Assembly (NCBI GenBank): GCA_949126835.1 | Contig: OX421495.1 | Span: 32,782,860-32,846,859, forward strand | Length of the DNA: 64,000 nucleotides | Reading direction: 5' to 3' | Source of the DNA: Anisus vortex | Lineage: Eukaryota; Mollusca; Gastropoda; Planorbidae | In this document: positions 12,201 to 64,000 of the stretch, in pieces | Layout of the letters: each line of letters begins with the position of its first letter | Position numbering within the stretch: position 1 is the stretch's first letter | Position numbers and translations under genes: made by a program | The notes under the pieces: generated by a model | What the model saw: the letters and a program-made list of their open reading frames with translations, nothing else | Databases searched by the model: none | Told to the model about the DNA's origin: nothing

Positions 12201-12221
12201 TGCTGAAATACCATTTGGTTA

Positions 12222-22300: not shown

Positions 22301-25300
22301 TTGGAACGTAAGTATCTACAATGAGCAGGCACAGTAGTCATATTTGTAATATACAGCTTTCTTATCCTTCATCAATTTGTTTTAAAACAAAATTTTTAAT
22401 AATATCATTATGTCCGATTCACCATTGTTCATAGACCTACATGGCCTAGTGGCAGCGTGTCCGGCTAGCGATTCACCATTGTTCATAGAACTAAATGGCC
22501 TAGTGGCAGCGTGCCCGGCTAGCGATTCACCATTGTTCATAGACCTACATGGCCTAGTGGCAGCGTGCCCGGCTAGCGATTCACCATTGTTCATAGACCT
22601 ACATGGCCTAGTGGCAGCGTGCCCGGCTAGCGATTCACCATTGTTCATAGACCTACATGGCCTAGTGGCAGCGTGCCCGGCTAGCGATTCACCATTGTTC
22701 ATAGACCTACATGGCCTAGTGGCAGCGTGCCCGGTTAGCGATTCACCATTGTTCATAGACCTACATGGCCTAGTGGCAGCGTGCCTGGCTAGCGATTCAC
22801 CATTGTTCATAGACCTACATTGCCAAGTGGCAGCGCGCCCGGCTAGCGATTCACCATTGTTCATAGAACTACATGGCCAAGTGGCAGCGCGCCCGGCTAG
22901 CGATTGACCATTGTTCATAGACCTACATGGCCTAGTGGCAGCGTGCCCGGTTAGCGATTCACCATTGTTCATAGACCTACATGGCCTAGTGGCAGCGTGC
23001 CTGGCTAGCGATTCACCATTGTTCATAGACCTACATGGCCTAGTGGCAGCGTGCCCGGCTAGCGATTCACCATTGTTCATAGACCTACATGGCCTAGTGG
23101 CAGCGTACTTCGATTTCTGGAGAAGGTTGGGATTTTTTCTTTTGAAGGGCGTCCCAACTCTGGTGTATAAAAGACAATTGATGAGCAAAGTAAAGGCGGG
23201 CGAGAGGGGGCATTGTGGTGGCCTAACAATTCTCTATTATGCCGTGCATGGAAACTTGAGAACAATGCTTCAAAGGCTCTACAGATCAATTTGATCTGAC
23301 GGGGATACTGCTTCTGTCAAGTAATAAGCAAACAAATGAAGTTTCTCTTTATGACTATGATTGTGTGGCCGACACAATTCATATCCACATTTTTTAGGTA
23401 CACACAGGCAGGGAAAAAGATAGACTCAAATTATTGTGCATGGATATGATTATAGAATCTATCAATAATACAACGTATTGAGCGTTTTAAACGTACTCTT
23501 TTCTGTTTTCAATATACTGCCATAGCAATAACGAAAAGCATAATTGCATCATTTGAATTTCTCCGCATACCTTGCAATATGAAATTTAAAAAAGTACAAT
23601 ACACACAAAGAAGAACAACTTAGGTTTGACATTAATGAGAATTAACATTTAATAACAACCTCCACCCCCCTTCCCGACAGGGACATAGACACATTTTATC
23701 CAGGGTAGGCTGATCTTTCACGTGACAAATATTTATCAAATTTGCGCGAATTTAACACATATTTAAAAAAAAAACTGTTGAAAAAAGTATTTTTCAAAAA
23801 TTTCAGAGAGGGGGGGAGGCTTCGCTTCCCTCGACCTCCTCGTGGCTTCGCCCCTGCCCCCACCCCTTTCTTCCTTAGAATAAATTCTTCTTACGCTGGT
23901 GTATATATAACCCTAATTATGTAAACCTACACATATAGAAAATACATTGATCTAAGAATTTCATTAAATATCCCCTGTTGCAGTCCAGGTTGGTTTATAG
24001 GGCAAGCATTCACAAATTTCTTTGTCTACGGCTTACAAGGGGGGGGGGGGGGGAAGCGGTGTGGCCAGCGCAACGCCCAGCCACCTTTACATTATCTTCA
24101 ATTATTGCTTGGTACCCATTCAGAGCCTGGTAGACTCAGAAACACCATCCAGACCCGGGCAAATAATCCTAGCCTTTGGTACGACACCACGAGTGGTCTG
24201 CCAGTATACCATACAGACTTCATTAGATATTTAAATTCATAACACTCTAATATAACGTACATGTTGTACTAATAACTATAGCGATGCACTGTCTGCTTGC
24301 AGGGCTGCCACGATCAAGTTCAATCTTCGCATGGCCAAACTACAATCCTTTACAACGTCCGTTGCCATTATCCACCGACCCCCACTAGGGACGTACCTCC
24401 TGCTCAACTGCTCGTCGCCAGACAGCGTGCCTGATGGCCACGTGACATGGACATACTACGACCAGGGAATATACAAGGCAGTTATTTGGGATTCTAGAGT
24501 TACTGTTGATTATGATGGTGCGTAGATTGTATTTACATTTTGGCGATGATTGTACAAAGACATAGATTTGACTAGATTTTGCTTATTAATAAACATAGAT
24601 TTTAATTTACATTTTAGCTATAATTGTACAAAAACATAGATTTGACTAGATTTTGCTTATTAATAAACATAGATTTTAATTGACAATTAAGCTATGATTG
24701 TACAAAGACATAGATTTGACTAGATTTTGCTTATTAATATACATAGATTTTAATTTACATTTTAGCTATGATTGTACAAAGACATAGATTTTACTAGATT
24801 TTGCTTATTAATAAACAAAGATTTTAATTTACATTTTAGATATGATTGTACAAAGATATAGATTTGACTAGATTTTGCTTATTAATAAACGTAGATTTTA
24901 ATTTACATTTTATCTATAATTGTACAAAGACATAGATTTGACTAGATTTTGCTTATTAATAAACGTAGATTTTAATTTACATTTTAGCTTTAATTGTACA
25001 AAGACATAGATTTGACTAGATTTTGCTTATTAATAAACATAGATTTTAATTTACATTTTAGCTACGATTGTACAAAGACATAGATTTGACCAGATTTTGC
25101 TTATTAATAAACATAGATTTTAATTTACATTTAAGCTATGATTGTACAAAGACATAGATTTGACTAGATTTTGCTTATTAATAAACATAGATTTAATTTA
25201 CATTTGAGCTATGATTGTACAAAGACATAGATTTGACTAGATTTTGCTTATTAATAAACATAGATTTTAATTTACATTTAGCTATGATTGTACAAACACA

Positions 25301-28300
25301 TAGATTTGACTAGATTTTGCTTAATAATAAACGTAGATTTTAATTTACATTTAAGCTATGATTGTACAAAGACATAGATTTGACTAGATTTTGCTTATTT
25401 ATAAACATAGATTTTAATTTACATTTAAGCTATGATTGTACAAAGACATAGATTTGACTAGATTTTGCTTATTAATAAACAGATTTTAATTTACATTTTA
25501 TCTATGATTGTACAAAGACATAGATTTGACTAGATTTTGCTTATTAATAAACATAGATTTTAATTTACATTTTAGCTATGATTGTACAAAGACATAGATT
25601 TGACTAGATTTTGCTTATTAATAAACATAGATTTTAATTTACATTTTAGCTATGATTGTACAAAGACATAGATTTGACTAGATTTTGCTTATTAATAAAC
25701 ATAGATTTTAATTTACATTTTAGCTATGATTGTACAAAGACATAGATTTGACTAGATTTTGCTTATTAATAAACATAGATTTTAATTTACATTTTAGCTA
25801 TGATGGGGGCATGGAGCACAGTGGCAGTGCGGCAGAGCGTTCGGAAGGCTTACCGAAGGTCCTGGGTTCGAATCCTGGTGGATTTGTTCCCGGTTCTGGA
25901 GGCTGTCCCTGAGTCAAACATGCTCTGATGGGTACCTGACTTAAGTGAAGGCGACTGCGCATTGTACTGGCCACAAGACCCCCTAGTATGCTAGAAACTA
26001 CTGAGCTCGGCTGCACCAGCCCTATATCTATATATAGCTTTGTGCAAACCGCCATCATGTTAATGTTTTAAAGCTCATTTCTTATAATTTTCTCAGTAAA
26101 AAGTGTCTGTTCAATTCAGTTATTTCATGAAACGCCCTACGTAGCATTGGGCTGTTCAATTCAGTTATTTCATGAAACGCCGTACGTAGCAATGGGTTGT
26201 TCAATTCAGTTATTTCATGAAACGCCCTACGTAGCATTGGGCTGTTCAATTCAGTTATTTCATGAAACGCCCTACGTAGCATTGGGCTGTTCAATTCAGT
26301 CATTTCATGAAATGCCGTACGTAGCATTGGGCGGCCAACATTTTCCAGAGTTCTATGTCTTAGCGTCATCACAGTCTATACAGATGGACTGCAAGTCTCT
26401 TGTGCAGGCTGTTTTATCATGGGACGTCCTTGTCTTCTTTTGCCATTCTGTGGGGCACCTTAAAGCGTTTGTTTTCTGTCATCCTCAGCACAAGATCAGT
26501 TGATCTCTCTTTTTTCCTGTTATATTTAGAAAGTCACACCGTTTGAGGATTTTTTCATTCTTTATGAGATTTATTTATGTCCACAATCTTCCTAACACAC
26601 TATTGAAGGAATACATTTAATCTGTGCGTGAAAATCAAGATCTGTGTTGTCCTCCATGTTTCACTAGCATATTGAGCTATTGGTAGTACACCGCTATTGT
26701 AGAGGCGTAGTTCTATAACAAGCGCAATAGTTCTCATTGTTCAGATTTTGTTTTCTCATTTTTTGGACGGTAGCAGTAGCCAATTCGATTTGTCTCTGAA
26801 CTTTTAAGTCTACACCTGCATTTTTTGTCATTATACTGCATAGGTAAATAAAATTATGTACTTCTTCAAGGGGTTTTCCACCTAGTAGGAGATCTAGCTT
26901 GTTGGATCTGCAGATTCTCATAGCTAGTCTTGCAGTGCTAGGTATGTGCAGACAGATTAATGTCTCAGATTCTAATGCTAGACTTGCATTGCGAGATCAG
27001 TTAGCTTGACACCATCTGATCTTGAAATGCGCTAACGTGAACCATTTATTTACTGCTACATAATAAAGTCTATTACCAAAATAAATAGGATTGGCTTTAA
27101 TATGCATCTTTGTCTAGCAATATTTATAATTAAGTTATAATGCCAAAATCTTCGATAGACCCATAGGCCTACAGCATCAGTATGTGCGTCTTAAAAGGGA
27201 GGTAAAAACTACCACATCAGAATACAGATGGACATTGATTTAACCAATGGGGTTAACAATGAAAAAGCTAAACTTTGTTGTCTTTTTCATTCCTTTCAGA
27301 TAATTTACATTTCACCTACGTGGCAGCTACCGACTCAATGGGAGGTAAGCCATACCACTGCATGGTCAGCAACAAGATAATGCGCATGTCTGTGATTGGA
27401 CCGCCGCATTACATTTACCCAACAGGAAGTAAGTGTTACCATTTTTGATCACGGAACACTCAAAGATTTTTTTTTTGTCGGAAAGCCAATCATTAAAAGA
27501 CTCAAAAGTATTAAAGACTGTTAATGCACACGAATTACAACTTTTATTAATAGAAATGGCGACGAATTTCACAGATAAAATGCTTCGCTTATCCGTGGTT
27601 TCAATTTCGACTTGCTTCAGGATTACATACCTCAAATGATGTTAGCTTTTTTTTTGTTCAAGCAACCCATTCCATGCCCACTTGCCACTAGGGAAGAAAA
27701 GATAATGTGTATTTATCTTTTTAATATGGAATAAGAAAAGTGTATGTATCCCTGTCTTTCTGAATGTTTCACTAGATTGTTGTGCATTTATTTCTCTGTA
27801 AGAAATGAAGACATGAATCTATACATTATAGTTGCAATAGATGTGTCCCTATAGGCTACTCTATAACAGTCTCCGCTATTTAGAAATACATATAACGTTG
27901 ACTTGTCGTCTTTACTTATGGCATTCTGGAACTTGAATTAGTAGTCTGAGCATTGATAAGTCTTAATTAGGCGTGATCTTTTGAACTGGTGAGATCGTGA
28001 ACTTCCGCTTCTATTTTTAAATGTTTAATTATTTTAGGCATTTCCATAAACAAAAAAGCATGCTTTTGCTGGTTATTGACAGTTGATTTCAACCTCGACG
28101 GCTAGTTGTTGGCTGTTAGAATTATACAAAGGATACAATATTAGTTATGAGGAATCCGTTTTTAACATCAAAAGTGAGTATGCGATAATTAATACTCAAG
28201 TGTTAATCGCATGTAGCTTGTTTATAAAATAAATGAGTCAAGAGTTGCGTTTTCTTGGTTATTGAAAAACAAAATTCGTATTCATAAAAACGAATAACAA

Positions 28301-31300
28301 AAATTATTTTGCATTAAGCAATAAGTTTGATATTATAAAAAGATGATTATTCCCTTCTGACTTTCACAATACATTGTTTTCTTTTGTAAACATCTTTTGG
28401 AAATTAAAGAAACTTTAATCCCCAACAAATGTTCGTACAACCAGTAACCTAGCACATAGACATGTTTCTAATAAAATGATCCAATTCGACCGGAAATGTT
28501 TTTTCTTGTGAACTTTTATGCATGCATACACGTTAAGACTTGTCAATATGGGAATGAAAACAAAATACAGAACTTCTAACATTTATCAACACGCGAGACT
28601 TGATTGAGATTAGGGATAAACTTTGGAGGCAATAATCTTCTGCATTGTATTCACGAAGGAGATGTAAAAAGAGAAGGAATGACAAGAAAAATCATTACAG
28701 AAAGAGGGAATATGCCTAGAAACTATAAATATACAGAGTGAAAGACAGTGGCTACGATAGAGCTCAATTATGGATATTTAAATCTAAAGTACGAAACATA
28801 GGTTGCTAAAAAGAAAAGGTGTCATTAACAACACTGAGTTGACTTTCTCTTTTAGCGCACGAGACTTTTACACCAATGACAAAGGCGTGGCCAGCATCCC
28901 GGTTTGATGACACCGCATTGATTGGTTCTGAATGGAAGAAGAAATGCATCTTTTCTGGCAAGTACGTCCAAATCACTATGGTTTTGTTTCCAACTCTTGT
29001 CCATTCAAATAATACCTATAAAATACGCCCAATGCAAATCTTTTGGTGGTGTTTTTCTTGTGGCTTTAGGCATAACCAATACATTACATTGGTGTACTTT
29101 GTAGTTTTAATCTTCCCAGATAAAACAAACATCCGTAGTTCTCCAGCATCTGTTAGATATTTAAGTACTCTTCACAGCATCACTTCAAGTGCCAAGCTCA
29201 GCAGTAGGTAGTTTCTTACTAGGGTGGAGTGGGGCAAGACAGACAACTTGGTGTTTTGACAATACATGATTGTAAACTATAAAAAATTATAACTGTAGTT
29301 CTAGAAATTAGTTAACTTTCTCGGATTACCGTTATATAATTTTTTTTTCTTAAAAGTATGTAGACAGAAAATATGGAGATAGCTTACTTCTGTATATGGG
29401 ACACAGTGAAAGCACGTTTGACAGGCGTACCTGGTTCCTGGGTTTAAATCCTAGTAAATGCTTGGGTTTGTTCCCGGGACTGGAGGGTATTCTTGAGTCT
29501 AACAAGCTCCGATTAGTACCTGACAATATAGTTGGGGTAAAGTAAAGTTGGCTGAGCAGTGTGCTGGCCACACATCCCCTAGTATACCTTGTCCACAGAA
29601 ACTGGTGAGCGCTGCTTCACCGACCTTATGATCAGTTTGGTCTGACGGGATACTCTATTTACTTACTTCTGAATCAGTCCAATGGACAATAATAATCTTT
29701 GTTTTCAGTCGATTTTAATCATTTATTTCTTATGTCCAACGGCCTTTGGAGTTTAATCATTTATTTCTTATGTCCAACGGCCTTTGGAGTTTAGTCTTCT
29801 GACTGGTCACCTCAATACCAAGCTTTGGTGTGTCATCTTTTCTAATGCCAACCCGTCCACCAAGCTTTGGTGTGTCATCTTTTCTAATGCCACCCGCCCA
29901 CCCAGCTTTGGTGTGTCATCTTTTCTAATGCCAACCCGTCCACCAAGCTTTGGTGTGTCATCTTTTCTAATGCCAACCCGTCCACCCAGCTTTGGTGTGT
30001 CATCTTTTCTAATGCCAACCCGTCCACCAAGCTTTGGTGTGTCATCTTTTCTAATGCCAACCCGTCCACCAAGCTTTGGTGTGTCATCTTTTCTAATGCC
30101 AACCCGTCCACTCAGCTTTGGTGTGTCATCTTTTCTAATGCCAACCCGTCCACCAACTATTAACGTTTAGTTTTTACTTTGGATATTTCTCCCCTTTTCC
30201 CCTACTAATATTGAAAGCTTTTTAAACTGGGATTTATTTTTAAATTTTCGGTAATCTATCAGATAAGTATTGTGTTGGTGAAGTGCTCTATGAACAGATC
30301 TTTGTTACAATATATACAATTTTTCTAAAGTTATATAATAACCTGGCAATAGTTCATCGAAAATACAACATAATAACTTTTGGCATAAAAATAACCTGAG
30401 TTATAAATTCTATATCTTTAGACGGTATATTATTTATTAAAAATTACTATTGTTAAGTAAAGTAATACTATTTTTGTTACATGTCTTACAAAAATCTAGC
30501 CTAACTGTATATGTCACGATCTAGCAGATCAGATAAAATAACTTTATATTTACACTACAAGTCACGATCTAGCAAATCAGATAAAATAACTTTATATTTA
30601 CACTACAAGTCACGATCTAGCAAATCAGATAAAATAACTTTATATTTACACTACAAGTCACGATCTAGGAAATCAGATAAAATAACTTTATATTTACACT
30701 ACAAGTCACGATCTAGCAAATCAGATAAAATAACTTTATATTTACACTACAAGTCACGATCTAGCAAATAAGATAAAATAACTTTATATTTACACTACAA
30801 GTCACGATCTAGCAAATCAGATAAAATAACTTTATATTTACACTACAAGTCACGATCTGGCAAATCAGATAAAATAACTTTATATTTACTCTACAAGTCA
30901 CGATCTAGCAAATCAGATAAAATAACTTTATATTTACACTACAAGTTACGATCTAGCAAATCAGATAAATAAATAACTTTATATTTACACTACAAGTGAC
31001 GATCTAGCAAATCAGATAAAATAACTTTATATTTACACTACAAGTCCGGTGCCAAGTGTCATCTGGAAAAAGAAAGGCAGCGATCGTTTCAATGAAAGAG
31101 TCGTACAGGGCAACAGCGGAGGTCAAGAAATCATCATCCGGAACCTGCAATACGAAGACGCCGGGACATACCTGTGTGACGGGACCAGAGAGCAAGAAGC
31201 CAGCCCGATGGAGATGTCTTTTAGTTTGAAAATAAATGGTATGTATAAGACACATTTTATGGAAGGGGAGAGAGTAGGATGGAAGGTTGATGTGGCGCTC

Positions 31301-55300: not shown

Positions 55301-58300
55301 AACGCTAGTGGTCGGAACAGAAATTTAATCTTCGTATTCGAAAACAAACAAAAATGGAATTTCCACACTGATGCTGATCGCTCCTTTAACAGACAAACAG
55401 ACCGATAGACGTAAGGTTGCGAGATACTTGAACTTCAAAAGGAGGACATAGAGAGACAAAAAGAATGACATATTTAGTGTTTCACAATCCACAATCTGTT
55501 CAGTTTTGTTACATTAGCTGTCAATAATTGTATATTAGTAAAACTGACCCAATATTTTATTTAATTAAGACTGAGAAGCGACTTGGGCAATTAAAAAAAA
55601 CTACTTTGCAGAACATGTAACGTTCTTTTCAAAAATGGTTAATTTTCTTGCCGGATGTCAACCGTAGATAGATGTGTCTGGGATTTTATTCATATTCTAC
55701 AAATATTATTTTAATGTGTGTAACATATTGATCTAACATCCACTGATTCATATTATAATTATAAAGGTCTAAATTTATGACACTACAGCTTTTGATTTCT
55801 GCTAATCCAAAATCATCTATGTTTTGTTTTACAAATATTTCACCACGTTCCAAGGATCAATGGTCCTTCATATTCTTTTTTGTTAGTATAATCAATGCAA
55901 ATTTGTCTTTTCCAAACTATAACTTACTTTGCCCGGGGGCGGAGAGGGGGAACAGAAAATGGGTAAAAAATCGGATATTTAGAACCGAAAATAGGTTTTG
56001 AGAAAAAAAAAGGATATTAACATCCCTAATGTGAAGTAGAAGACTGAAGTTAATAACAACGGATTATTTAATCACTCCAATAAATGGTTTACTCAAATAG
56101 AGTGCCCATAAACTAGTTAATATTACACATAAAAGAACATTCTTTTGAAATCATTTAATTTGTTTAGAATTTTCGGTTTATTTTTTGCTTTCGGCCGAAG
56201 TTGTAGTTAAACTTTTGGTTTCGGCTTCGGTTTCGGCCGAAAGTCAATGTATAATATTCGGTATGTTTTCGTTTTCGGCCGAAACTAAAAATTTGGTTTC
56301 GGTCGTTCTCTAATTATATATACTATAGACCTAAAGGCATTTAAAAAAAAAAAGATGAATATCTAAAACACGTTAATTTTCAATTAAATGTAAAACGCTT
56401 TAACGATTTACTCTATGAAGCTCCGTTGCTTTTGGCATTGGTCTTGCTAATAAGGCGCTAACAAAATTGTCTTATAAACCAAATATAGTAGAGCAAGTTA
56501 TCTTTCAGGTTGTTGGCACGCTGAATGACTTAGAAATCTTAGTATGGCACACTATTAGCAAAAGGTTGCCGACCCCTGGTATAGAACATCATAAAATGGC
56601 CATAATAAAAAAAAAGTAATAGTTTTAAAGATAGAATTATGTGAATGCTAATGCAATATTCAAATGTGTGTCACTATATTATTACTTTCCTTCGATTTAA
56701 CTAATTCTTGCGATAATCCATTTAGTAGGGTAATTTAGTAAGCTTATAGAAAAATCTAATACATTATATATTTATCCTGGGCGTGACAGTCGTGGGTGTG
56801 ATTAGGTTTACTTTAGCATCTTTACTCTTGTCTCTCTTTGAGTAGTCTTCGCTTGTATGAGTTTCCCCACAAGAGAACTTCCACACACAATGTAAAGAAA
56901 ACTCAACAAAATCTTAGTTTAATTTTAATCAAGGAAGCACATGATTTACTTCCCTTTTCATCAATCATGACGTCATGTGGTTACGGTCCAAATTTAAGGT
57001 AGTGGCTGAGGGATTTACTTCGCTACACAATTCCTACGAACTCTTGTGCCATGCTTGTTTCGACTTATAAAGCTTTTTTCGCTGTTGTTTGTACGGAAGC
57101 TCTTTGTCCATTTCTTCACTTAAAGAATATTCTACTGCTCTGGACCCTAATCGCTGGGTGTTCGCTGCCCAGGTCAAACAGACGGACAACACTGCATTCG
57201 TGCCACTATCTCCTGGGATGGATTACAAGTTCAGGTAAGCATTGACCTGCTTTGTGACGTAACGGACATTAAGAAACATTGTATGACGTTCTGTTTTTTT
57301 TAATAGGGTGAGAGCGAGGAAGGTAAGAATAACTTAGAAATTGAACCAATTTTACAACGCTAACTAGTGTTTATGATAAGTAAGTTAATGATAAGTTAAT
57401 GATAAGTAAGTTAATGATAAGTAAGTTAATGATAAGTAAGTTAATGATAAGTAAGTTAATGATAAGTAAGTTAATGATAAGTAAGTTAATGAAAAGTAAG
57501 TTAATTATAAGTAAGTTATTCATAAGTAAGTTAATGATACGTAAGTTAATGAAAAGTAAGTTAATTATAAGTTAGTTATTGATAAGTAAGTTAATGATAA
57601 GTAACCTAAGTAAATATGTAAGTGAGTAAATTCTAATTAAATAATTAAGTTAATGATAAATAAATTAATGATAATTAATACATGATAAGTTAGCTAAAGA
57701 AAGGGAAGCTAATAATAAGTGAGTAAATTCTAAGTAAATGACCTAAGCGATTTGTGAGTAAAGGATAAGTAAGTAAATGATAATAACTATTGATATAATT
57801 CTATGTAAGTAACTTAAAACAGTAACGTCTAATCAGGGTGACCTCCTACAATAAGATAGGACCAAGCAAACCAAGTGACCCTTCTAACAAAGCATGCATC
57901 ACAACCGAGTCAATGCCGACCCAAAACCCGAGAAATTTGAGAACCATCGGAGACATGGTTGGAAATCTTCACATACAATGGACGGTAAGCAATAGAGTGA
58001 ATCAGGTAGTTTATACATGAAATACATATTACATTATACAACAATAAATTGAGTGAATCAAGCAGTTTATACATGAAATACATATTACATTATACAACAA
58101 TAAATTGAGTGAATCAAGCAGTTTATCTATGAAATACATATACATTATACAACAATAAATTGAGTGAATCAAGCAGTTTATACATGAAATACATATACAT
58201 TATACAACAATAAATTGAGTGAATCAAGCAGTTTATACAAGAAATACATATTACATTATACAACAATAAATTGAGTGAATGAAGCAGTTTATACAAGAAA

Positions 58301-61300
58301 TACATATTACATTATACAACAATAAATTGAGTGAATCAAGCAGCTTATACATGAAATACATTATACATTATACAACAATAAATTGAGTGAATCAAGCAGT
58401 TTATACATGAAATACATATTACATTATACAATAATAAATTGAGTGAATCAAGCAGTTTATACATGAAATACATATTACATTATACAACAATAAATTGAGT
58501 GAATCAGGCAGTTTATACATGAAATACATATTACATTATACAACAATAAATTGAGTGAATCAAGCAGTTTATACATGAATTACATATTACATTATACAAC
58601 AATAAATTGAGTGAATCAGGCAGTTTATACATGAAATACATATACATTATACAACAATAAATTGAGTGAATCAAGCAGTTTATACATGAAATACATATAC
58701 ATTATACAACAATAAATTGAGTGAATCAAGCAGTTTATACATGAAATACATATACATTATACAACAATAAATTGAGTGAATCAGGCAGTTTATACATGAA
58801 ATACATATACATTATACAACAATACATTGAGTGAATCAGGCAGTTTATACATGAAATACATATACATTATACACCAATACATTGAGTGAATCAGGCAGTT
58901 TCTTTATGAAATACATATTACATTATACAACAATAAATTGAGTGAATCAAGCAGTTTATACATGAAATACATATTACATTATACAACAATAAATTGAGTG
59001 AATCAAGCAGTTTATACATGCAATACATATACATTATACAACAATAAATTGAGTGAATCAAGCAGTTTATACATGAAATACAGAATACATTATACAACAA
59101 TAAATTGAGTGAATCAAGCAGTTTATCTATGAAATACATATACATTATACAACAATAAATTGAGTGAATCAAGCAGTTTATACATGAAATACATATACAT
59201 TATACAACAATAAATTGAGTGAATCAAGCAGTTTATACATGAAATACATATTACATTATACAACAATAAATTGAGTGAATAAAGCAGTTTATACATGAAA
59301 TACATATACATTATACAACAATAAATTGAGTGAATCAAGCAGTTTATACATGAAATACATATACATTATACAACAATAAATTGAGTGAATCAAGCAGTTT
59401 ATACATGAAATACATATACATTATACAACAATAAATTGAGTGAATCAGGCAGTTTATACATGAAATACATATACATTATACAACAATAAATTGAGTGAAT
59501 CAAGCAGTTTATACATGAAATACATATACATTATACAACAATAAATTGAGTGAATCAAGCAGTTTATACATGAAATACATATACATTATACAACAATAAA
59601 TTGAGTGCATCAAGCAGTTTATACATTTATACAATATACAACGATACATTGAGTGAATCAAGAGTGAATCAAACATTTTATTAACCGAACACATGAAATA
59701 GTCTATTATGTAGTAGAAATATTTAAGCAATCGGACATGTTTATGACAATCATAAAATGATTCGTAACATAACTAGTTTATTGAACTAAACACACGTAAA
59801 AAGTAAGGTTACATAAAGAGTGAAGTGCGCCGTTTACATACGGAATGTTAACATGATGTTGTGCTAGATAATGAATGGACATTTTTTTATTGAACTATTA
59901 GATTCTAACACATTCCCTCTCAATAAGTCCATTATTCACATTTTTCTGAGTGATCACATTTTAAACGTGGTGTTTTATATAGAGAGTTTTAAAATAAAAG
60001 AATATCGAGATATATATTTATATATATGCACAAGTTTTGCTTATATGCATGTGTATGTGTGTATACATTTATTTCTGAATGCATTTTTCAGTAATACTAT
60101 AGAATATTTAACATTGACGTCTCTACCAAATCTTCCCATTCAATAACCCACATGTCATATAATAAGCAGGTACAATATGTACACGTTGATGCTGATACCA
60201 TACCTATGAGACTTACATCTACTTCCAGCCTGTACCACCAGAACATCAGGGAGGTCCTGGCTGCTTCTATAGATTGACCTTACTGCGAGTCGGACAGCCA
60301 GCCACCAACAAAGAAACAATCACCATACAAAACTGGCAAGAATATGAGGTCATTCGGTCAGGCACGGTCAGTTCTATTTCAAACTCATTAAACATTATTA
60401 GACGCTTTTGGTATTTTTTTTAGCTTTTTCATGTATTGTAACATAGATGTGAATAATAATGAATATTAAGTATTATTATGTCTTGTTTTTTTAATCTTCA
60501 AGATGCTTACATCAATCCGTTTACTGTCCTGTTAATAACTTTTTTTTCTAGCTCAGATAGTAGGCCCGTTTTCTTAGCATTCTATTGTATCTCTATCTAA
60601 ACCCAGCTCGCTGATGGCTACCGAGGTTCTTCTTCTACATCATCTATATTTTCTATGTGTCCTCATGAGTTTCCATGTCATTCTTTCAGTGATATATTCA
60701 GTGGACTTCTTTTTGAGATGTGTCTATGTTTACGAGGAGTGACGATGCTTACAAAGAAGAATTTAATAATTTAGTGTTACAGATTGGTGGAAAAGTTCTT
60801 GTAATATAATGCATAACAAACCAGAAAAAAAATTGGCCTTAAAAGAATCTACACAGTGAATTTAATCACAGCTTACCAATATCTGTTTTAGATGACTGTG
60901 TACAACAAATATATAATGTTTAAAAAAAATACGATGTATAATTATTAATGTATTAATTAATTAATAATTTCGTAATATAGATTTTCAAGCTTTAATATGT
61001 AAGTCAAGGTATAAACATGTAAGTTAAATTATATAAATGTAAGTTAGGTATTTAAACGTAAGTTAAGATTCATAAATGTAAGTTAAGGTAACCCGGTATA
61101 TAAATCTCCAGTTGTTGGGCTTCACATTGATTTAAAGGTCAGCCTAACCGTGACTTTTCGGAGTGGTTCCAATCCTAGACTGGTCTTGGTTGTAAATGCA
61201 TGAAGCCATTAGGTCTATACATTTTCATTATATATACATGAATAATCACAGAATATATACATTGGGTTGATTAATAAAAAATGTCACCTGTCGTTTGTCT

Positions 61301-64000
61301 ATTGATCACAAGCTCATGATTTCAATGTCCATACAAACTTTGTTTTGCTATCCCGTTTTCTTTAAATCTCAGGGACCATCATACCAGCCGTACCAGATCA
61401 GTATCGTTGCAGTTAACCCAAGTGGAAACAGTATTGAGCCAGCGCCTACAATCATTGGTTATTCAGACGAGGGACGTAAGTGCAAACTTTGTTCTAGTCT
61501 CAAAACGTCTGGTATTTTTTTGCTAAGTGTTAGACTGGAGCTCTCTCACTTCAGTACTTTTGGCGGTTGTCTAGGAATGATTCTTTTTTGGCCCAACGGG
61601 AACCTATGTCTCTCTGACGATAGAAAATAATTGTGCAGCAATTCCTCAAGTTGGTCGATCTAGATTTGTATTCAAATTATCTACAAGCAACTGCATTCGA
61701 TTTGACTGCTGCTCTGACATATCCAACTATCAAATGTTATTTTTATAAAGCTAACCAAGACAATATACAATAGTTCCACAGATTTGACTGCTGCTCTGAC
61801 ATATCCTACTATCAAATGTTATTTTTATAAAGCTAACCAAGACAATATACAATAGTTAAACAGATTTGACTGCTGCTCTGACATATCCAACTATCAAATG
61901 TTATTTTTATAAAGCTAACCAAGACAATATACAATAGTTCCACAGATTTGACTGCTGCTCTGACATATCCTACTATCAAATGTTATTTTTATAAAGCTAA
62001 CCAAGACAATATACAATAGTTCCACAGATTTGACTGCTGCTCTGACATATCCTACTGTCAAATGTTATTTTTATAAAGCTAACCAAGACAATATACAATA
62101 GTTCCACAGATTTGACTGCTGCTCTGACATATCCAACTATCAAATGTTATTTTTATAAAGCTAACCAAGACAATATACAATAGTTCCACAGATTTGACTG
62201 CTGCTCTGACATATCCTACTGTCAAATGTTCTTTTTATAAAGCTAACCAAGACAATATACAATAGTTCCACAGATTTGACTGCTGCTCTGACATATCCAA
62301 CTATCAAATGTTCTTTTTATAAAGCTAACCAAGACAATATACAATAGTTCCACAGATTTGACTGCTGCTCTGACATATCCAACTATCAAATGTTATTTTT
62401 ATAAAGCTAACCAAGACAATATACAATAGTTCCACAGATTTGACTGCTGCTCTGACATATCCTACTGTCAAATGTTCTTTTTATAAAGCTAACCAAGACA
62501 ATATACAATAGTTCCACAGATTTGACTGCTGCTCTGACATATCCAACTATCAAATGTTCTTTTTATAAAGCTAACCAAGACAATATACAATAGTTCCACA
62601 GATTTGACTGCTGCTCTGACATATCCTACTGTCAAATGTTATTTTTATAAAGCTAATCAAGACAATATACAATAGTTCCACAGATTTGACTGCTGCTCTG
62701 ACATATCCAACTATCAAATGTTATTTTTATAAAGCTAATCAAGACAATATACAATAGTTCCACAGATTTGACTGCTGCTCTGACATATCCTACTGTCAAA
62801 TGTTATTTTTATAAAGCTAATCAAGACAATATACAATAGTTCCACAGATCTCACCCTATGCTCTACAAGTGTTAAACGTTGATTCAGAGACAGTCACACT
62901 GCAATGGAAGTTTGACAGCAGGGAAATTGGGAAAATGGATTCGAAAATCCGTGGTGAATTTATGGGATTTAAGGTAAACTTTAAGAAAAAGAAGTACTTA
63001 TATTAGGTTAATGATTTTAATGTAGAAAGGAAGTTAAGTAGGTTGGTGGCTAGATAGCTAGATTGATATGTCCTAAGGTAGGTAGCACCCAGCTAAGCAA
63101 TTAGATTCATTGCAACGTTTGTCTACTATGCCTATTAATTTAGTAAATTCACCGAAATCGTACTTTTTGACAAGGGAAGCTACTCGCTATATTTTTCTTT
63201 GCATTTAAATAAAAAGATTAAAACCCACTTTGTACATTTTGAATTTCTGTATCCCTTACAACTTTATGTTTTTCTCCCAATCCAAGTTTAATGCACTTTA
63301 ATATTTTGAAAAAATAAATCAGGAGAAATAGTTCTAGTGCACAGCTTTCTTGTGTATATTTTTTCAAAATCTCGTCTTATTGATTTACTTAATCATATAA
63401 TAGTTTTTACATTTTGATAATTCTTTCTTCTTGCGCGTGGGCTGAATAAGAAACTAATTGACAGGAAATTGATATAATTCTAAGCCTTTATTTTATTAAT
63501 TTAAGAGTTTAAGTAGAGGGCCTACATAACTTTGAAATGACAGGTGTACATTTTGATGCAGAGTTGAATTAATCAGACCGTTCCTGTAGACCTGATGCCC
63601 AATAAGAGTACTTATTCCTAAAACAGCGGTTCGGGATCTCATGGTAGTCACCAGCAGACCAGTTCTAGCATTCACTGTCTTGTAGAAGATACTTCAATTG
63701 CATTTTTTGGGAGTTTTCTGTGCGCCATTGAAAATTGCTCTGCGTGTCAAATGTGGAACGCGTTACCTAGGTTGCCGACCCCTGTTGGTTTATACAATAA
63801 CTTTATATTTATTTGATTTACATGTGTGCGTTCATTAATAACAAAATTCACCCCTCCCCTCCCCCCCCCCCCCCCACAGATTCAGTTCTGGCTTCAAGAC
63901 TACAGGAGAGAAACTATCAGGGATCTAGACCTTCGGCCCGCCGACCTGGAAGGCCAGCTAAACGTTTACAACGCCACGATAAAACACCGCATGCCCAACG
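16333..64000 (+). CDS. L1CAM/neuroglian-like cell adhesion molecule, 20 exons, 3'-incomplete
   Basis: Chained exons (listed separately) give about 908 codons with consistent phases. Residues 1-20 are a signal peptide. Six Ig domains follow at about 25-112, 115-213, 225-322, 323-419, 433-520 and 521-617, each with the Cys/Trp/Cys pattern, for example FECLADGQP and FQCNVTNNHGY in Ig4. FN3 domains lie at about 618-712 and 713-825, and a third starts at 826 and runs off the window. Order and motifs fit the L1CAM/neuroglian family, whose members have six Ig and usually five FN3 domains, one membrane helix and an ankyrin-binding tail, and act in homophilic adhesion, axon guidance and septate junctions. 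Several N-x-S/T sites (NCS, NVT, NET, NDT, NIT, NLT) fit an extracellular protein. Introns are phase 0, 1 or 2, and domain starts are mainly phase 1. Family assignment is by recognition, not search. Hemolin or contactin-type proteins are alternatives if the downstream part lacks a membrane segment. Confidence 0.88.
16394..17999. other. Intron 1, 5' part; nothing recognised
   Basis: AT-rich intron sequence. Two overlapping frames near 16890-17170 are mutual shadows and show no domain. Confidence 0.5.
18010..18110 (+). mobile_element. Short repeat family copy (LINE-type tail?)
   Basis: TTATCTTATCTAATATATTACAGACGCTCC..AAGAAGATTATTGCGTCC is shared almost exactly with 42545-42650; a partial relative is at 34790-34830. 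The TTATC-like tail resembles the 3' tails of CR1/L2-type LINEs. Confidence 0.5.
18140..18260. repeat. Dispersed repeat, copy 1 of 3
   Basis: The CATTCCATACCCGAATGGC and ATAAGGAAAGTGTTT blocks recur at 27655-27765 and 31995-32100. Family not recognised. Confidence 0.5.
18800..19205. repeat. 50-bp minisatellite, about 8 copies
   Basis: The unit contains GCATGCTATGTCTGAAC and AAATATCTGCAATACGTAC. It lies directly upstream of hAT copy B. Confidence 0.93.
19330..19965 (+). pseudogene. hAT transposase C-terminal remnant, copy B
   Basis: It carries the dimerisation-domain motif FGSTYTCEQ at 19858-19884 followed by LS-stop-MKAV, as in hAT transposases (FGSTYxCEQxFSxMK). Upstream parts are in other frames with stops. 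A 100-codon open frame at 19531 is part of this decay. Confidence 0.7.
20590..20722 (+). mobile_element. Retroposed polyadenylated tail inside hAT B
   Basis: Contains ATGAGATTGTACATGTAAAA, an AATAAA signal and an A tract. It is the sense copy of the sequence found reversed at 770-890 in hAT A. It is shorter here, consistent with 5' truncation. Confidence 0.55.
21270..21375 (+). CDS. Exon 2: first half of Ig1
   Basis: Acceptor CCTTATAG, donor TC|GTGAGT, entering in phase 1 and leaving in phase 2. It encodes ASTPPKITKQ followed by the first Ig cysteine in IECEASGEPAPS, the usual B-strand pattern of the family's first Ig domain. Confidence 0.85.
22155..22307 (+). CDS. Exon 3: second half of Ig1
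   Basis: Acceptor TGTACAG, donor AAC|GTAAGT. It encodes YWWRRADV (core Trp) and DEGIYQCFATNSFG (second Cys with the D-x-G-x-Y-x-C motif). Phases are 2 in and 2 out. Confidence 0.88.
22410..23106. repeat. 54-bp minisatellite, 13 copies, in intron 3
   Basis: The unit contains GGCCTAGTGGCAGCGTGCCC, which resembles a tRNA A box, and GATTCACCATTGTTCATAG. The period keeps frames open on both strands (165 and 268 codons), which are not genes. It starts about 100 bp after the exon 3 donor. Confidence 0.93.
23150..23325 (+). mobile_element. SINE tail fragment
   Basis: GCTCTACAGATCAATTTGATCTGACGGGGATACT matches in sections the 3' end of the tRNA-SINEs listed below (GATCAATTTGGTC, GGGATACT). With the A-box-like array before it, this suggests a SINE whose head was amplified. 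Confidence 0.5.
23326..24302. other. Intron 3, 3' part; nothing recognised
   Basis: AT-rich with a 12-14 base G run near 24041. Confidence 0.5.
24303..24517 (+). CDS. Exon 4: Ig1-Ig2 linker and first half of Ig2
   Basis: Acceptor TGCTTGCAG, donor GATG|GTGCGT (a weaker GTGCGT donor). It encodes LLLNCSSPDSVPDGHVTW, with the first Cys and core Trp of Ig2. Its donor is followed within a few bases by a 74-bp minisatellite that fills most of the next 1.3 kb. Confidence 0.85.
24518..25800. repeat. 74-bp minisatellite anchored at the exon 4 donor, about 17 copies
   Basis: The unit contains ATGATTGTACAAAGACATAG and TTTGCTTATTAATAAAC. Repeat-like sequence begins at the donor itself (GTGCGTAGATTGTATTTACA) and continues to the SINE at 25805. 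Confidence 0.93.
25805..26056 (+). mobile_element. tRNA-derived SINE, copy 1
   Basis: A-box-like GCACAGTGGCAGTGCGG, then B box GGTTCGAATCC at 25864-25874, then the family body (CTGAGTC, GGTACCTGA, GGCCACAAGACCCCCTAGTATG). The body is shared with 29388, 33580 and 51590. Confidence 0.85.
26098..26330. repeat. 45-bp minisatellite, 5 copies
   Basis: The unit contains TGTTCAATTCAGTTATTTC and CCCTACGTAGCATTGGG. Divisible by three, so frames stay open on both strands. Confidence 0.92.
26340..26930 (-). pseudogene. Non-LTR retrotransposon RT C-terminal fragment
   Basis: The minus frame reads KPLEEVHNFIYLCSIMTKN, IELATATVQKMRK and further on RLYNSGVLP, the conserved region after the RT catalytic domain of jockey/I-type LINEs. 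Frameshifts and stops are present. Only the C-terminal part is left. Confidence 0.72.
27300..27428 (+). CDS. Exon 5: second half of Ig2
   Basis: Acceptor TCCTTTCAG, donor GGAA|GTAAGT. It encodes LHFTYVAATD and KPYHCMVSNKI with the second Ig2 Cys. An internal GTAAGC inside the exon (27345 region) could act as an alternative donor, but the frame continues through it to the Ig cysteine. Confidence 0.82.
27655..27765. repeat. Dispersed repeat, copy 2 of 3
   Basis: CAAGCAACCCATTCCATGCC and ATAAGAAAAGTGTATG match 18140-18260 and 31995-32100. Confidence 0.5.
27770..28855. other. Intron 5, nothing recognised
   Basis: AT-rich, no long frame and no clear repeat end. Confidence 0.5.
28856..28961 (+). 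CDS. Exon 6: Ig2-Ig3 linker and first half of Ig3
   Basis: Acceptor CTCTTTTAG, donor CAA|GTACGT, phase 1 in and 2 out. It encodes MTKAWPASRFDDTALIGS and KKKCIFSGN, where the last residue is completed by exon 7. It carries the first Cys of Ig3. Confidence 0.78.
29388..29668 (+). mobile_element. tRNA-derived SINE, copy 2
   Basis: GGACACAGTG head, B box GGTTTAAATCC at 29441-29451, body with CATCCCCTAGTATACC and tail GGTCTGACGGGATACT. Confidence 0.8.
29713..30165. repeat. Two ~45-bp copies then a 42-bp minisatellite, 9 copies
   Basis: The unit contains AGCTTTGGTGTGTCATCTTT and TAATGCCAACCCGTCC. Preceded by a direct duplication containing ATTTCTTATGTCCAACGGCC. Confidence 0.93.
30515..31044. repeat. 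48-bp minisatellite ending in the exon 7 splice acceptor, 11 copies
   Basis: The unit contains ACGATCTAGCAAATCAGAT and TTATATTTACACTACAAG. The real exon 7 acceptor (ACTACAAG|T) is the end of the last unit, so each upstream unit repeats the acceptor context. 48 bp keeps a frame open for 86 codons, which is not a gene. Confidence 0.95.
31045..31238 (+). CDS. Exon 7: core and second half of Ig3
   Basis: Acceptor CACTACAAG|T is the last unit of an upstream 48-bp tandem array; donor AATG|GTATGT. It encodes PVPSVIWKKKG (core Trp) and YEDAGTYLCDGTREQEAS (second Cys). The polypyrimidine tract is poor because it is made of array sequence. Confidence 0.85.
31487..31640. repeat. 18-bp minisatellite, about 8 copies, upstream of exon 8
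   Basis: The unit is CTAATATTTCTCTAAA-like. It lies about 85 bp upstream of the exon 8 acceptor and supplies repeated CTAAT/CTAAA motifs resembling branch points. Confidence 0.88.
31725..31856 (+). CDS. Exon 8: first half of Ig4
   Basis: Acceptor TATGTAG, donor GAAG|GTGAGT, phase 1 in and out. It encodes AAPSWVSTPKDVTLIESGD and FECLADGQPRVKTFWFVNGA, the strong family signature for the fourth Ig domain. Confidence 0.88.
31995..32100. repeat. Dispersed repeat, copy 3 of 3
   Basis: CCAACCCATTACATGCCCGA and ATAAGAAAAGCGTTTC match the copies at 18140 and 27655. Confidence 0.5.
32399..32604. mobile_element. hAT-derived MITE, 206 bp
   Basis: Ends CAGGGGTCGGCAACC and GGTTGCCGACTCCTG. Flanking octamers CCTTTTGC and CCTTATAC match at 6 of 8. 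Subterminal GTTGGCACGCTGAATG is shared with hAT C. Confidence 0.85.
32755..33015. repeat. 61-bp minisatellite, about 4 copies, upstream of exon 9
   Basis: The unit contains GTGAGGCCAACATCCTTTGC and CAATCTCCTCCAAGTTTGAC. Each unit holds a pyrimidine-rich stretch ending CCAAG, a possible weak acceptor. Ends about 80 bp before exon 9. Confidence 0.92.
33093..33254 (+). CDS. Exon 9: second half of Ig4
   Basis: Acceptor TTCTCACAG, donor CTTG|GTGAGT, phase 1 in and out. It encodes RFQHLTESKIFFRSVTRIDS and FQCNVTNNHGYLWAEA, matching the family's QCxxxNxHGY block. Its last 40 or so bases plus the donor are repeated four more times downstream. Confidence 0.9.
33283..33565. repeat. Tandem copies of the exon 9 end plus its donor, 4 extra copies
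   Basis: Each copy carries AATCATGGCTATCTGTGG, the GAAGCCAC..AATGTCCTT block and a GTGAGT-like site. Later copies are 60 bp apart, so the encoded NHGYLWTEATLNVL repeats in an open frame. Confidence 0.93.
33578..33842 (+). mobile_element. tRNA-derived SINE, copy 3
   Basis: A-box-like TGGTTGAGCGACAGCG, B-box block GGATTCGAATCC at 33634-33645, body GTGTCCCTGAGTCTACCCAG, tail TCCAACGGGATAAT followed by a T-rich stretch. Confidence 0.85.
34041..34258 (+). CDS. Exon 10: Ig4-Ig5 linker and first half of Ig5
   Basis: Acceptor TTTCATATAG, donor ACAG|GTAATG, phase 1 in and 0 out. It encodes RPSFLKVAEGQSFDMPCHV and KPDPKITWYRG with the Ig5 first Cys and Trp, then YSVDINGNLHVQ. Confidence 0.9.
34330..34770. 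repeat. Short-period repeats (CAGCTAATAATA; ATACATTGTCATTAAT, about 18 copies)
   Basis: Begins about 75 bp downstream of the exon 10 donor. Unit about 18 bp with drift to ATACAATGTCAT. Confidence 0.9.
35040..35318. repeat. AC-rich repeat (ACACACACTACACACTACAC, ATGTATAATAT)
   Basis: Irregular 35-55 bp units. It resumes at 37761 after the foldback element, showing that the element landed inside it. Confidence 0.9.
35525..35645. mobile_element. Degraded hAT MITE
   Basis: TGCGTGCCATACTTGGCAC and ACTTTGGCACGTT resemble hAT A/B/C subterminal sequence; terminal CAGGGG motifs are lost. Confidence 0.45.
37374..37570. mobile_element. hAT-derived MITE, 197 bp
   Basis: CAGGGGTCGGCAAAC start and GGTTGCCCATCTCCG end, flanked by the perfect octamer GACTAGAG (37366-37373 and 37571-37578). 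Nested in the foldback-like element. Confidence 0.92.
37949..38040. mobile_element. Fragment of a DUF4371/ZMYM-type hAT end
   Basis: CAGGGCCGTATTTAGG and GGGGGCCCCTTG resemble ends of the GGGGCCC-type hAT elements (compare 45757-48729). No partner end found. Confidence 0.4.
38178..38306 (+). CDS. Exon 11: second half of Ig5 and start of Ig6
   Basis: Acceptor TATTGACAG, donor GTTGAG|GTAAAT, phase 0 in and out. It encodes KSVLSDAGEYRCHASNTYGE (second Cys of Ig5). The final codons, PMDVE, together with the donor are repeated about 40 times in the following intron. Confidence 0.88.
38290..40365. repeat. 52-bp minisatellite made of the exon 11 end and donor, about 40 copies
   Basis: The unit contains CCTATGGATGTTGAGGTAAA, identical through the first four intron bases to the exon 11/intron junction, plus ATGGTAAACCTATTCTTT. 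A higher-order period of about 472 bp (nine units plus GAGT) is visible around 38486 and 38958. Confidence 0.96.
40540..40665 (-). mobile_element. Possible degraded tRNA-like SINE
   Basis: The minus strand reads GGACTCGTGTTCAAATC, B-box-like, about 30 bases after an A-box-like stretch. Weak. Confidence 0.3.
40935..41960 (-). pseudogene. Helitron Rep/helicase N-terminal fragment
   Basis: The minus strand has an RKRRTKQLEEETAKEREK-type basic/coiled N-terminus, then HGIYSFLAAGQVYQKMN..QYRQMYFLDSDD, then PFTYPLFFSKGRLGF, the order of the region leading into Helitron_like_N. An in-frame TGA lies after FTSPEGSV near 41381. Frameshifts appear near both ends. The Rep HUH motif and helicase are not present. 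Confidence 0.65.
42545..42650 (+). mobile_element. Short repeat family copy (see 18010)
   Basis: TTATCTTATCTTATACATTA and AAGAAGATTATTGCGTCC match the copy in intron 1. Confidence 0.5.
42651..43640. other. Intron 11, 3' part; nothing firmly recognised
   Basis: Includes an ACAAACAAACAAACCC patch near 43350. Short frames on both strands are mutual shadows. Confidence 0.45.
43646..43780 (+). CDS. Exon 12: first half of Ig6
   Basis: Acceptor TGCTCACTAAG|G, donor GACAG|GTAGTG, phase 0 in and out. It encodes VRSGVSAKFTCSG and LRTVWMKEHE (first Cys and Trp of Ig6). The start was chosen because phase 0 joins PMDVE to VRSGVSAKF smoothly. Confidence 0.85.
43781..44836. other. Intron 12, 5' part; nothing recognised
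   Basis: AT-rich with short TATTAACAAAT repeats near 44000-44060. Confidence 0.5.
44849..45308 (+). mobile_element. GC-rich retroposon of unknown family, 460 bp
   Basis: Clearly richer in GC than its surroundings and flanked by the 12-bp duplication GTATACTACACC (44837-44848, 45309-45320). It contains a strong inverted repeat GGCACGCC..GGCGTGCC near 44953. The 125-codon open frame inside has no recognised domain. Variable-length duplication suggests target-primed insertion, but there is no poly(A). Confidence 0.65.
46090..47640 (+). pseudogene. CR1/L2-like LINE RT 3' fragment, split by another LINE
   Basis: 46100-46261 reads WMAANRLKLNYDKTEAI. After an insertion it resumes near 47041 with SRLDYCNSCILGL.., QNSAARIVSG and LRDVHWLPV, the C-terminal RT block of CR1/L2-type LINEs. 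It ends in a TTATCTTATCTTCTTATC tail near 47655. Frameshifts are present. Confidence 0.75.
46262..47040 (-). pseudogene. Jockey/I-like LINE ORF2 C-terminal fragment inserted in the CR1-like LINE
   Basis: The minus strand reads ENAWDRKGLRLDTK, LNHFHVGCLRKLLKIRWQ, VPDTEVLRRAG, MPDHRLPKK and a terminal zinc finger CSTCNRSFRARIGLIGHQR. An AATAAA-like motif lies at its 3' end near 46270. A frameshift separates the 46665-46886 and 46307-46792 frames. Confidence 0.78.
47880..48610 (+). pseudogene. DUF4371/ZMYM-type hAT transposase fragment
   Basis: Reads VELALEDLLKMHLTPKTRNE, NEAKLLADNLHIE and TRFHDEDTPDEN, matching the middle of ZMYM1-like hAT transposases. Several stops and a frame change; the C-terminal dimerisation domain is missing. 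Confidence 0.68.
49081..49192 (+). CDS. Exon 13: second half of Ig6
   Basis: Acceptor TCTACTTTAG, donor ACAG|GTAGGT. It encodes DSSLTISGTEQRDTGTFTC and the Ig-ending strand ASARLVVT. Phase 0 in, 1 out. Confidence 0.88.
49193..49775. other. Intron 13, nothing recognised
   Basis: AT-rich with an AGAGAGAGAG patch near 49588. Confidence 0.5.
49776..49895 (+). CDS. Exon 14: first half of FN3-1
   Basis: Acceptor TATTTTCCAG, donor ATAG|GTAACG. It encodes DSPLPPSQVNITE, ANLTWMPGSFNNAPI and QYFTI, the proline-rich start and core Trp of a fibronectin type III domain. Phase 1 in and out. Confidence 0.87.
50090..50215. repeat. GA-rich low-complexity tract
   Basis: Irregular GAGAGA/GAAAGA tract in intron 14. 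Confidence 0.75.
50810..51420 (+). pseudogene. hAT transposase remnant, copy C
   Basis: DNA matches copies A and B (GCCGATGTTTCTGAATGA, ATATCTTGCCGTGAAATCAA). The dimerisation block at 51313-51339 reads FG-x-T-x-ICEQ. Many stops. Confidence 0.65.
51589..51858 (+). mobile_element. tRNA-derived SINE, copy 4
   Basis: ACACAGTGGTCGATCAGCGG head, B-box-like GGTTGGAATCC at 51648-51658, body GCCACACAATCCCCTAGTAT, tail GGTCCGATGGGATACT. Confidence 0.85.
52934..53006 (+). repeat. About 70-bp direct repeat flanking the LINE, left copy
   Basis: TATAGTTGTG, a T tract, then TCGAATTCCGAATATTGC and ATACAACCACATACAAC. The partner at 55216-55285 differs at a few positions. Confidence 0.85.
53030..55150 (+). 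pseudogene. Non-LTR retrotransposon RT (5'-truncated, frameshifted)
   Basis: Read across several frames, 53037-53160 is the linker; KAPGNDGIPAEVIQ, NKGDRSDCNSYRGISL, ESQCGFRKGRSTTDM and AFVDLTKAFD mark the RT fingers and palm. The longest frame (53919-54773) has GVKQGRVMAP, the catalytic LFADDAAL near 54217-54240 and LNIFHMRCLRRILG. After a stop at 54771, VGHVSRMQDGRIPKD and a C-terminal zinc-finger-like CLDCSRDCHSRIGL follow. No endonuclease domain. Jockey/I-like; exact clade not determined. Confidence 0.85.
55216..55285 (+). repeat. About 70-bp direct repeat flanking the LINE, right copy
   Basis: TATAGTTGTTTTG, T tract, TCGAATTCTGAATATTGC, ATACAAGCACATACAAC. See 52934-53006. Confidence 0.85.
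56587..57125. other. Intron 14, 3' part; nothing recognised
   Basis: No repeat end or coding other than exon 15 immediately after. Confidence 0.5.
57126..57234 (+). CDS. Exon 15: second half of FN3-1
   Basis: Acceptor CACTTAAAG, donor TTCAG|GTAAGC, phase 1 in and 2 out. It encodes EYSTALDPNRWVFAAQVKQ and LSPGMDYKFR, the conserved Y-x-F-R strand of FN3. A 7.2-kb intron separates it from exon 14. Confidence 0.85.
57370..57800. repeat. 15-bp GTAAGT-containing repeat in intron 15
   Basis: ATAAGTAAGTTAATG repeated about 16 times, decaying to 57800. Each unit contains the donor-like GTAAGT. Occupies most of the 602-bp intron. Confidence 0.92.
57837..57984 (+). CDS. Exon 16: end of FN3-1 and start of FN3-2
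   Basis: Acceptor TCTAATCAG, donor TGGACG|GTAAGC, phase 2 in and 0 out. It encodes RVTSYNKIGPSKPSDPSN (FN3 F-G strands), then QNPRNLRTIG and NLHIQWT of the second FN3 domain. Confidence 0.87.
57985..59690. repeat. 55-bp minisatellite starting at the exon 16 donor, about 30 copies
   Basis: The unit contains AATTGAGTGAATCAAGCAG and TTTATACATGAAATACATA. The first copy begins within the donor (GTAAGCAATAGAGTGAATCA). Confidence 0.95.
59691..60228. other. Intron 16, 3' part; nothing recognised
   Basis: AT-rich; a 91-codon frame at 59871 has no domain. Confidence 0.5.
60229..60366 (+). CDS. Exon 17: middle of FN3-2
   Basis: Acceptor CTACTTCCAG, donor GGCACG|GTCAGT, phase 0 in and out. It encodes PVPPEHQGGPGCFYRLTLLR, continuing the W-x-P strand from exon 16, then NWQEYEVIRSGT. 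Confidence 0.87.
60367..61372. other. Intron 17; short GTAAGT-like repeats only
   Basis: ATGTAAGTTAAGGT-like 18-mers near 60995-61090; otherwise nothing recognised. Confidence 0.5.
61373..61475 (+). CDS. Exon 18: end of FN3-2
   Basis: Acceptor TTAAATCTCAG, donor GGGAC|GTAAGT, phase 0 in and 1 out. It encodes YQPYQISIVAVNPSGNSIEP, the Y-x-V-x-A-x-N-x-x-G pattern that closes FN3 domains. Confidence 0.87.
61690..62839. repeat. 82-bp minisatellite ending in the exon 19 acceptor, 14 copies
   Basis: The unit contains TTTGACTGCTGCTCTGACAT and ACAATATACAATAGTTCCAC. Two variants (CCAACTAT and CCTACTGT/CCTACTAT) largely alternate. The last unit supplies the true acceptor ACAATAG|TTCCACAG. Confidence 0.95.
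62840..62973 (+). CDS. Exon 19: first half of FN3-3
   Basis: Phase 1 requires acceptor ATACAATAG|TTCCACAG rather than the next AG, 8 bases later, which would break the frame. It encodes LPQISPYALQVLNVDSETVT and LQWKFDS. The acceptor lies in the last unit of an 82-bp array. Donor TTTAAG|GTAAAC, phase 0. Confidence 0.8.
62974..63620. other. Intron 19, 5' part; nothing recognised
   Basis: AT-rich; no repeat or gene seen. Confidence 0.5.
63624..63784. mobile_element. Probable hAT MITE
   Basis: Right end GGTTGCCGACCCCTG is clear, and GAAAATTGCTCTGCGTGTC matches hAT subterminal sequence. The left end CAGCGGTTCGGGATC is weak, with no target duplication seen. Confidence 0.55.
63880..64000 (+). CDS. 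Exon 20 (partial): continuation of FN3-3
   Basis: The acceptor is preceded by a run of 15 C and then ACAG. It encodes IQFWLQDYRRETIRDLDLRP onward. GFK at the end of exon 19 plus IQFW here is a strong family match. The exon is cut by the window end. Confidence 0.83.
   Translation, partial: MQFWLQDYRRETIRDLDLRPADLEGQLNVYNATIKHRMPN

Follow-up and report, generated by a model that had tools for sequence, protein, structure and literature searches.

Minisatellites at six splice junctions of a snail neuroglian-like gene look like amphioxus mirages

In a neuroglian-like gene of the snail Anisus vortex, a splice junction is touched by six of the 10 minisatellites with units of at least 40 bp (6/11 or 6/12 if ambiguous arrays are counted). 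These arrays are probably mirages (we put the probability at roughly 0.7), that is, ordinary tandem duplications across or against exon-intron boundaries that subsequently expanded. According to this scenario, a short tandem duplication (~50-80 bp) would have arisen across or directly beside an exon-intron boundary of a neuroglian-like gene that is otherwise ordinary, and slippage, conversion or unequal exchange would then have enlarged it. The exon-proximal splice site would be held by purifying selection, so that one edge of the array would stay at the junction, with growth directed into the intron, and the spliceosome would take the exon-proximal site, such that the array would leave with the intron. 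The mechanism of duplication and correct splicing in vivo are elements of the scenario that we infer, and the use of the exon-proximal sites is predicted from the reading frame and homology. Arrays of this kind might allow introns to grow, and perhaps to be gained, in a way that the gene tolerates.

The host gene and its arrays

The host gene, located on the + strand of the window (the entire 64,000-nucleotide stretch of DNA analysed here), encodes an Ig/FN3 cell-adhesion protein of the L1/neuroglian type. Exons E2-E19 (21270..62973; 18 exons, 847 codons read) were placed by GT-AG boundaries and frame, with the numbering of the initial annotation, and the gene runs on beyond the window end. 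With the exon-proximal splice sites, the 18 exons join into a single open 847-residue frame without a stop. The best relatives of this protein, among the best 120 of 319 matched proteins, are neuroglian-like proteins of pulmonate snails, with identities over the whole query, among the matches listed, of 67 % for Biomphalaria glabrata, 65 % for Lymnaea stagnalis and 62 % for Physella acuta. Pfam detects Ig and fn3 domains in the joined protein, and the closest solved structures are those of neurofascin and contactin-2. Taken together, tblastn searches with seven relatives cover all 18 exons and also place the start of E20 at 63877; E14 is missing with one relative (P0001) and present with another (P0002). 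As placed (34041-34086), E10 adds 12-13 residues that are lacking, by eye, in the proteins of Biomphalaria and Lymnaea. Starting it at an AG near 34085 would bring its length closer, so that an alternative E10 acceptor is possible.

TRF produced 63 rows in the window, and those in the gene span gave 25 arrays after nested and overlapping rows were merged. The long-period set consists of the 10 arrays with units of at least 40 bp, or 11 or 12 if two ambiguous arrays are counted, namely, 35045-35318, where periods of 35, 63 and 98 bp all fit (filed under 35), and 37665-37752, where periods of 15 and 44 both fit (filed under 15). The six array-touched junctions named in the initial annotation, the donors of E4, E9, E11 and E16 and the acceptors of E7 and E19, were confirmed base by base. 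Its description of arrays that 'touch or include' the splice site is accurate with respect to touching at all six, but the E4 and E16 arrays adjoin the donor without repeating the GT and fail a stricter spanning rule (2/6).

The four boundary-spanning arrays, all on the + strand like their exons, have units that hold the splice site together with 2-45 bp of exon. At the acceptor of E7 (31045..31238), which follows E6 (28856..28961; donor CAA|GTACGT), lies a 48-bp minisatellite (30513-31046) of 11 copies, each with the acceptor CTACAAG; the array includes 2 exon bases, and its last copy is the E7 acceptor. The donor of E9 (33093..33254; CTTG|GTGAGT) is covered, with 45 exon bases, by a 60/76-bp repeat (33210-33561) comprising five copies of the exon end and donor, the authentic one among them. 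The donor of E11 (38178..38306; GAG|GTAAAT) is part of a 52-bp minisatellite (38292-40365) that includes 15 exon bases; the end of the exon and GAG|GT recur in every one of its 40 copies. The acceptor of E19 (62840..62973) belongs to an 82-bp minisatellite (61699-62849) with 10 exon bases and 14 copies, each with the acceptor CAATAG; the authentic CAATAG|TT, assigned from the reading frame, sits 8 bp upstream of a second AG, one that is found in every unit.

The remaining two contacts are made by abutting arrays on the same strand: a 74-bp minisatellite (24523-25804; 17.4 copies; TRF and unit listing) begins at intron position +6 behind the donor of E4 (24303..24517; GATG|GTGCGT; intron start 24518), and a 55-bp minisatellite (57991-59662; 30.3 copies by TRF) begins at +7 behind the donor of E16 (57837..57984; ACG|GTAAGC; intron start 57985). 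The exons E4, E6, E7, E9, E11, E16 and E19 are all backed by the open frame and by tblastn matches with snail relatives. Thus, 5' and 3' boundaries are both involved, with spanning at two donors and two acceptors and abutting at two donors. For the other four long-period arrays, the distances to a junction are 107, 968, 855 and 69 bp. The nearby arrays listed in the initial annotation are also real (107 bp from the E3 donor, 85 from the E8 acceptor, 69 from the E9 acceptor and 92 from the E10 donor), and the gene-wide pattern that it proposed is present within this gene. A weak two-copy repeat (38148-38190) covers the E11 acceptor and entered only the test with 25 arrays.

A scan for duplications at 34 junctions, each compared with 20 shuffles, yielded five clear cases, the rest being weak, marginal or not above the shuffle maximum. 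The E4 donor was weak (32 vs a shuffle maximum of 27), and 28 of the 34 junctions had no copy clearly above the shuffles, with the E5 acceptor (30 vs 27; marginal) and the E18 acceptor (22 vs 20) slightly above. A unit of the E4-side array (25047-25066) resembles the start of E5 (27301-27320), at the opposite end of the intron (score 30, shuffle maximum 27).

Several other elements were detected in the window. An RVT_1 ORF (53886-54770; Pfam E = 2e-12) lies in the intron between E14 and E15, and flanking ORFs without a Pfam match are taken for parts of the same LINE. Two ORFs on the - strand (40997-41800) are Helitron-like in appearance, a reading for which Pfam offered no support. ARAGORN predicted 0 genes and Rfam gave 0 matches at the gathering threshold, in both cases including a 54-bp unit (22415-23106) that is tRNA- or SINE-like in appearance. 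A 1.6-kb purine-rich array on the + strand occupies 12225-13864 (GC skew 0.75 and AT skew 0.75 in 12001-14000), and a segment of ~16 nt between E15 and E16 (57307-57322) is flanked by AG and GT.

Contacts with junctions under random placement

When each array was placed at random in its own intron (200,000 runs), the 10 long-period arrays touched junctions 0.51 times on average and never more than 5 times, compared with the 6 observed; for all 25 TRF arrays, 7 touches correspond to P = 1.5e-5. Significance is exaggerated under this whole-array null: since minisatellites enlarge through added copies, the randomly placed item is the founding unit. If the founding unit is placed instead, 0.57 touches are expected for a set of 36 junctions (P(>=6) = 5.5e-6); for a set of 35 junctions and with the arrays collapsed, the expectation is 0.74 (P(>=6) = 2.6e-5), and with half of the rest treated as later inserts in addition, 1.48 (P = 1.3e-3). 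Counting the ambiguous arrays under the latter null gives P = 4.9e-3 or 5.7e-3 for sets of 35 or 36 junctions, respectively, the E20 acceptor being off by about one base in these sets. For the four spanning arrays alone, P = 7e-4 to 0.02 (rising to as much as 0.05 once the ambiguous arrays are included), and for the two abutting arrays alone, P = 0.006 to 0.04. All these P values are optimistic because the gene was chosen for its striking look.

The outcome differs under a null in which arrays extend outwards until an exon blocks them. This barrier-growth model expects 3.95 contacts vs the 6 seen (P = 0.13), or 4.02 with eleven arrays (P = 0.14), so that a junction-targeted mechanism is unneeded for the touching itself; the model leaves the units with exon bases unexplained. 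Random birth of the repeat unit gives P ~5e-6 to 6e-3, depending on the null. Overall, the comparison is suggestive of an excess of arrays at junctions relative to random birth, which is not proof of a targeting mechanism.

Chance alone, that is, a repeat-rich gene in which some arrays landed at junctions and were then noticed, overlaps the mirage explanation and differs from it solely in denying any excess. It fits with the coverage of 8588 of the 42730 bp of the span (20 %) by arrays and with the 7.15 junctions expected in or near arrays if junctions are random points, but not with the overlap of the founding unit with a junction in all four spanning arrays at the above probabilities, and we consider it a doubtful account. 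A process aimed at junctions (via R-loops, co-transcriptional nicks or repair linked to splicing) that, in this lineage, duplicates DNA in tandem at splice sites would account for the 6/10 arrays at junctions, with founding-unit P values of 5.5e-6 to 5.7e-3, and would be in line with the mirages described, in excerpts of the respective papers, in several amphioxus genes. Nevertheless, such a process appears improbable given that the evidence comes from one window, selected as striking, that the barrier-growth null stands, that 28 of the 34 scanned junctions are without a copy clearly above the shuffles, and that TRF finds arrays of a similar kind upstream of the known exons as well. Because the spanning arrays exceed random birth, a local junction bias, which the mirage explanation does not name, is possible.

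Copy variation and the choice of splice sites

Copy-similarity scoring covered the E7, E11, E16 and E19 arrays, with one stray E11 hit (0.34) and two partial far-end E16 hits (0.49) left out. The ends of the E11 array are diverged (0.84 and 0.91 for the exon-side copies, 0.84 for the far-end copy), compared with mostly 0.95-1.00 inside, and the exon-side copy of the E16 array is diverged as well (0.90). Divergence of the end copy is slight in the E19 array (0.94 vs 0.96 or more) and was not found in the E7 array, where the exon-side copy scores 0.98 and the lowest copy (0.88) carries an insertion. Within the E11 array, two adjacent 472-bp blocks (38500..39443, + strand) are identical at 468 of 472 positions, a multi-unit duplication of the kind expected as a trace of unequal exchange of several units.

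This multi-unit block structure and the many variants between copies also bear on a possible assembly artefact. Tandem arrays are difficult to assemble, but both these features, the absence of N in the window and the frame that stays intact across all 18 exons speak against such an error, which we regard as extremely improbable.

A common source of the arrays was sought among the units themselves. In a blastn comparison of the ten units with the window, the only matches outside their own arrays were exact ones of 14 and 16 bp, both from the E7 unit and neither in another array, and thus no shared mobile element was seen. A mobile element with an internal minisatellite was rejected on the basis of this unit comparison, in which the ten units are mutually unrelated by blastn at the cut-off applied.

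Splice signals recur in the copies of the four spanning arrays. GAG|GT is found in 40/40 copies of the E11 array (34 GAGGTAAAA, 4 GAGGTGAAA, 1 GAGGTAATA and the authentic GAGGTAAAT), and the acceptor stretch is identical in 10/11 copies at E7 and 13/14 at E19; of the five donor copies at E9, with the authentic copy counted, two have the authentic 16-mer. Such uniformity could be taken to indicate selection for redundant sites, as the initial annotation suggested among possible causes, with any copy able to serve as a backup or an alternative. However, the arrays have been recently homogenised, so that identity carries little information, and in-frame stops appear on reading past the first E11 donor. 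Motif variability, analysed in the E4, E7, E11, E16 and E19 arrays with the end copies left out, gave no support to that suggestion: the internal copies show no unusual invariance of the splice motif (rank fractions of 0.42 for E11, 0.40 for E7 and 0.18 for E19, at low power), and the donor-side stretch of the abutting arrays has rank fractions of 0.55 at E16 and 0.84 at E4. The test is weak because the arrays are too uniform. The motif windows are no less variable than the rest of the unit in these arrays, and we consider maintenance of redundant splice sites by selection very improbable.

Most internal acceptors are identical to the exon-proximal ones over the compared stretch, and the latter have no sequence advantage. 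Splice-site choice is known to involve exon definition, from which it would follow that the choice is settled by adjacency to the exon.

In the E11 array, an AG lies exactly 24 nt before GAG|GT in 38 of the 39 internal units, and all these 38 segments are open in the frame of the exon; because the copies are near-identical, they amount to one observation rather than 38 independent ones. By their sequence, these 24-nt segments could in principle be microexons. We entertain, as an unlikely conjecture, that tandem duplication is concentrated at splice junctions in animals as distant as lancelets and snails, transcription or splicing making the DNA prone to breakage or slippage, or that the E11 segments are in-frame microexons.

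Mirages and other known systems

Tandem duplication with splice signals at exon-intron boundaries is the core of the Rogers model of intron gain and is discussed along with repeats in primate genes in the excerpts of PMC2812944. The snail arrays are similar in that the duplicated stretch includes splice signals at boundaries. Unlike in intron gain, the joined snail protein is, by eye, level with that of Biomphalaria or Lymnaea at 5/6 junctions, with no new intron needed, in a comparison of proteins alone, which do not reveal intron positions. At E9-E10, the 12-13 extra residues stem, by eye, from the E10 side and not from the array. The minisatellite of human IFI6 (6-16), reportedly described by Turri in 1995, is said to provide multiple splice donors. 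The snail arrays share with it the link between a minisatellite and splice donors but differ in that their internal donors are putative and, at E11, would meet stops.

In the literature searched, with most subscription papers outside its scope and many sources represented by excerpts, no boundary minisatellite in a mollusc was found; excerpts of papers on C. elegans, abalone, Conus and earthworm report intronic repeats, among which we found no boundary-spanning ones.

The initial annotation knew of no named system of this kind, but the mirages of amphioxus, to judge from excerpts of PMC3087553 and PMC3902484, are such structures. According to the former, mirages are minisatellite-like tandem duplications of exon-intron boundaries that are reported to be harmless to regular splicing and have been proposed as a route to intron gain. 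Excerpts of both papers describe them at 5' or 3' boundaries, with unit lengths between 10 and 160 bp, AG/GT signals in the copies and cluster ends that escape homogenisation, in the genes for Adh3, troponin C, the globins BflGb6/BflGb9 and PGBD5 (PMC3087553, PMC3902484). In lancelet PGBD5, 60- and 108-bp repeats overlap or directly adjoin splice sites, and the excerpted text on this gene adds Adh and troponin C to the list of such genes (PMC3902484).

Should sequencing reads and RNA confirm the snail arrays, mirages would not be confined to lancelets, existing mollusc genomes could test whether splice junctions attract tandem duplication, and it would become testable how the spliceosome chooses one among up to 40 near-identical sites. 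As known here from the DNA of one assembly, the arrays show anatomical features of mirages, with tandem units at both 5' and 3' boundaries and abutting arrays like those in PGBD5, and with end-copy divergence that is clear in two of the four arrays scored. They differ from the excerpted amphioxus cases in their snail host, in having up to 40 copies vs 2-7 in the globin and PGBD5 genes (the Adh3 numbers not being among those), and in occupying six junctions of one gene, and it is the mollusc host, the copy number and the six junctions that are new here. By analogy, the snail arrays look like the kind already described, the same phenomenon as amphioxus mirages in a distant animal.
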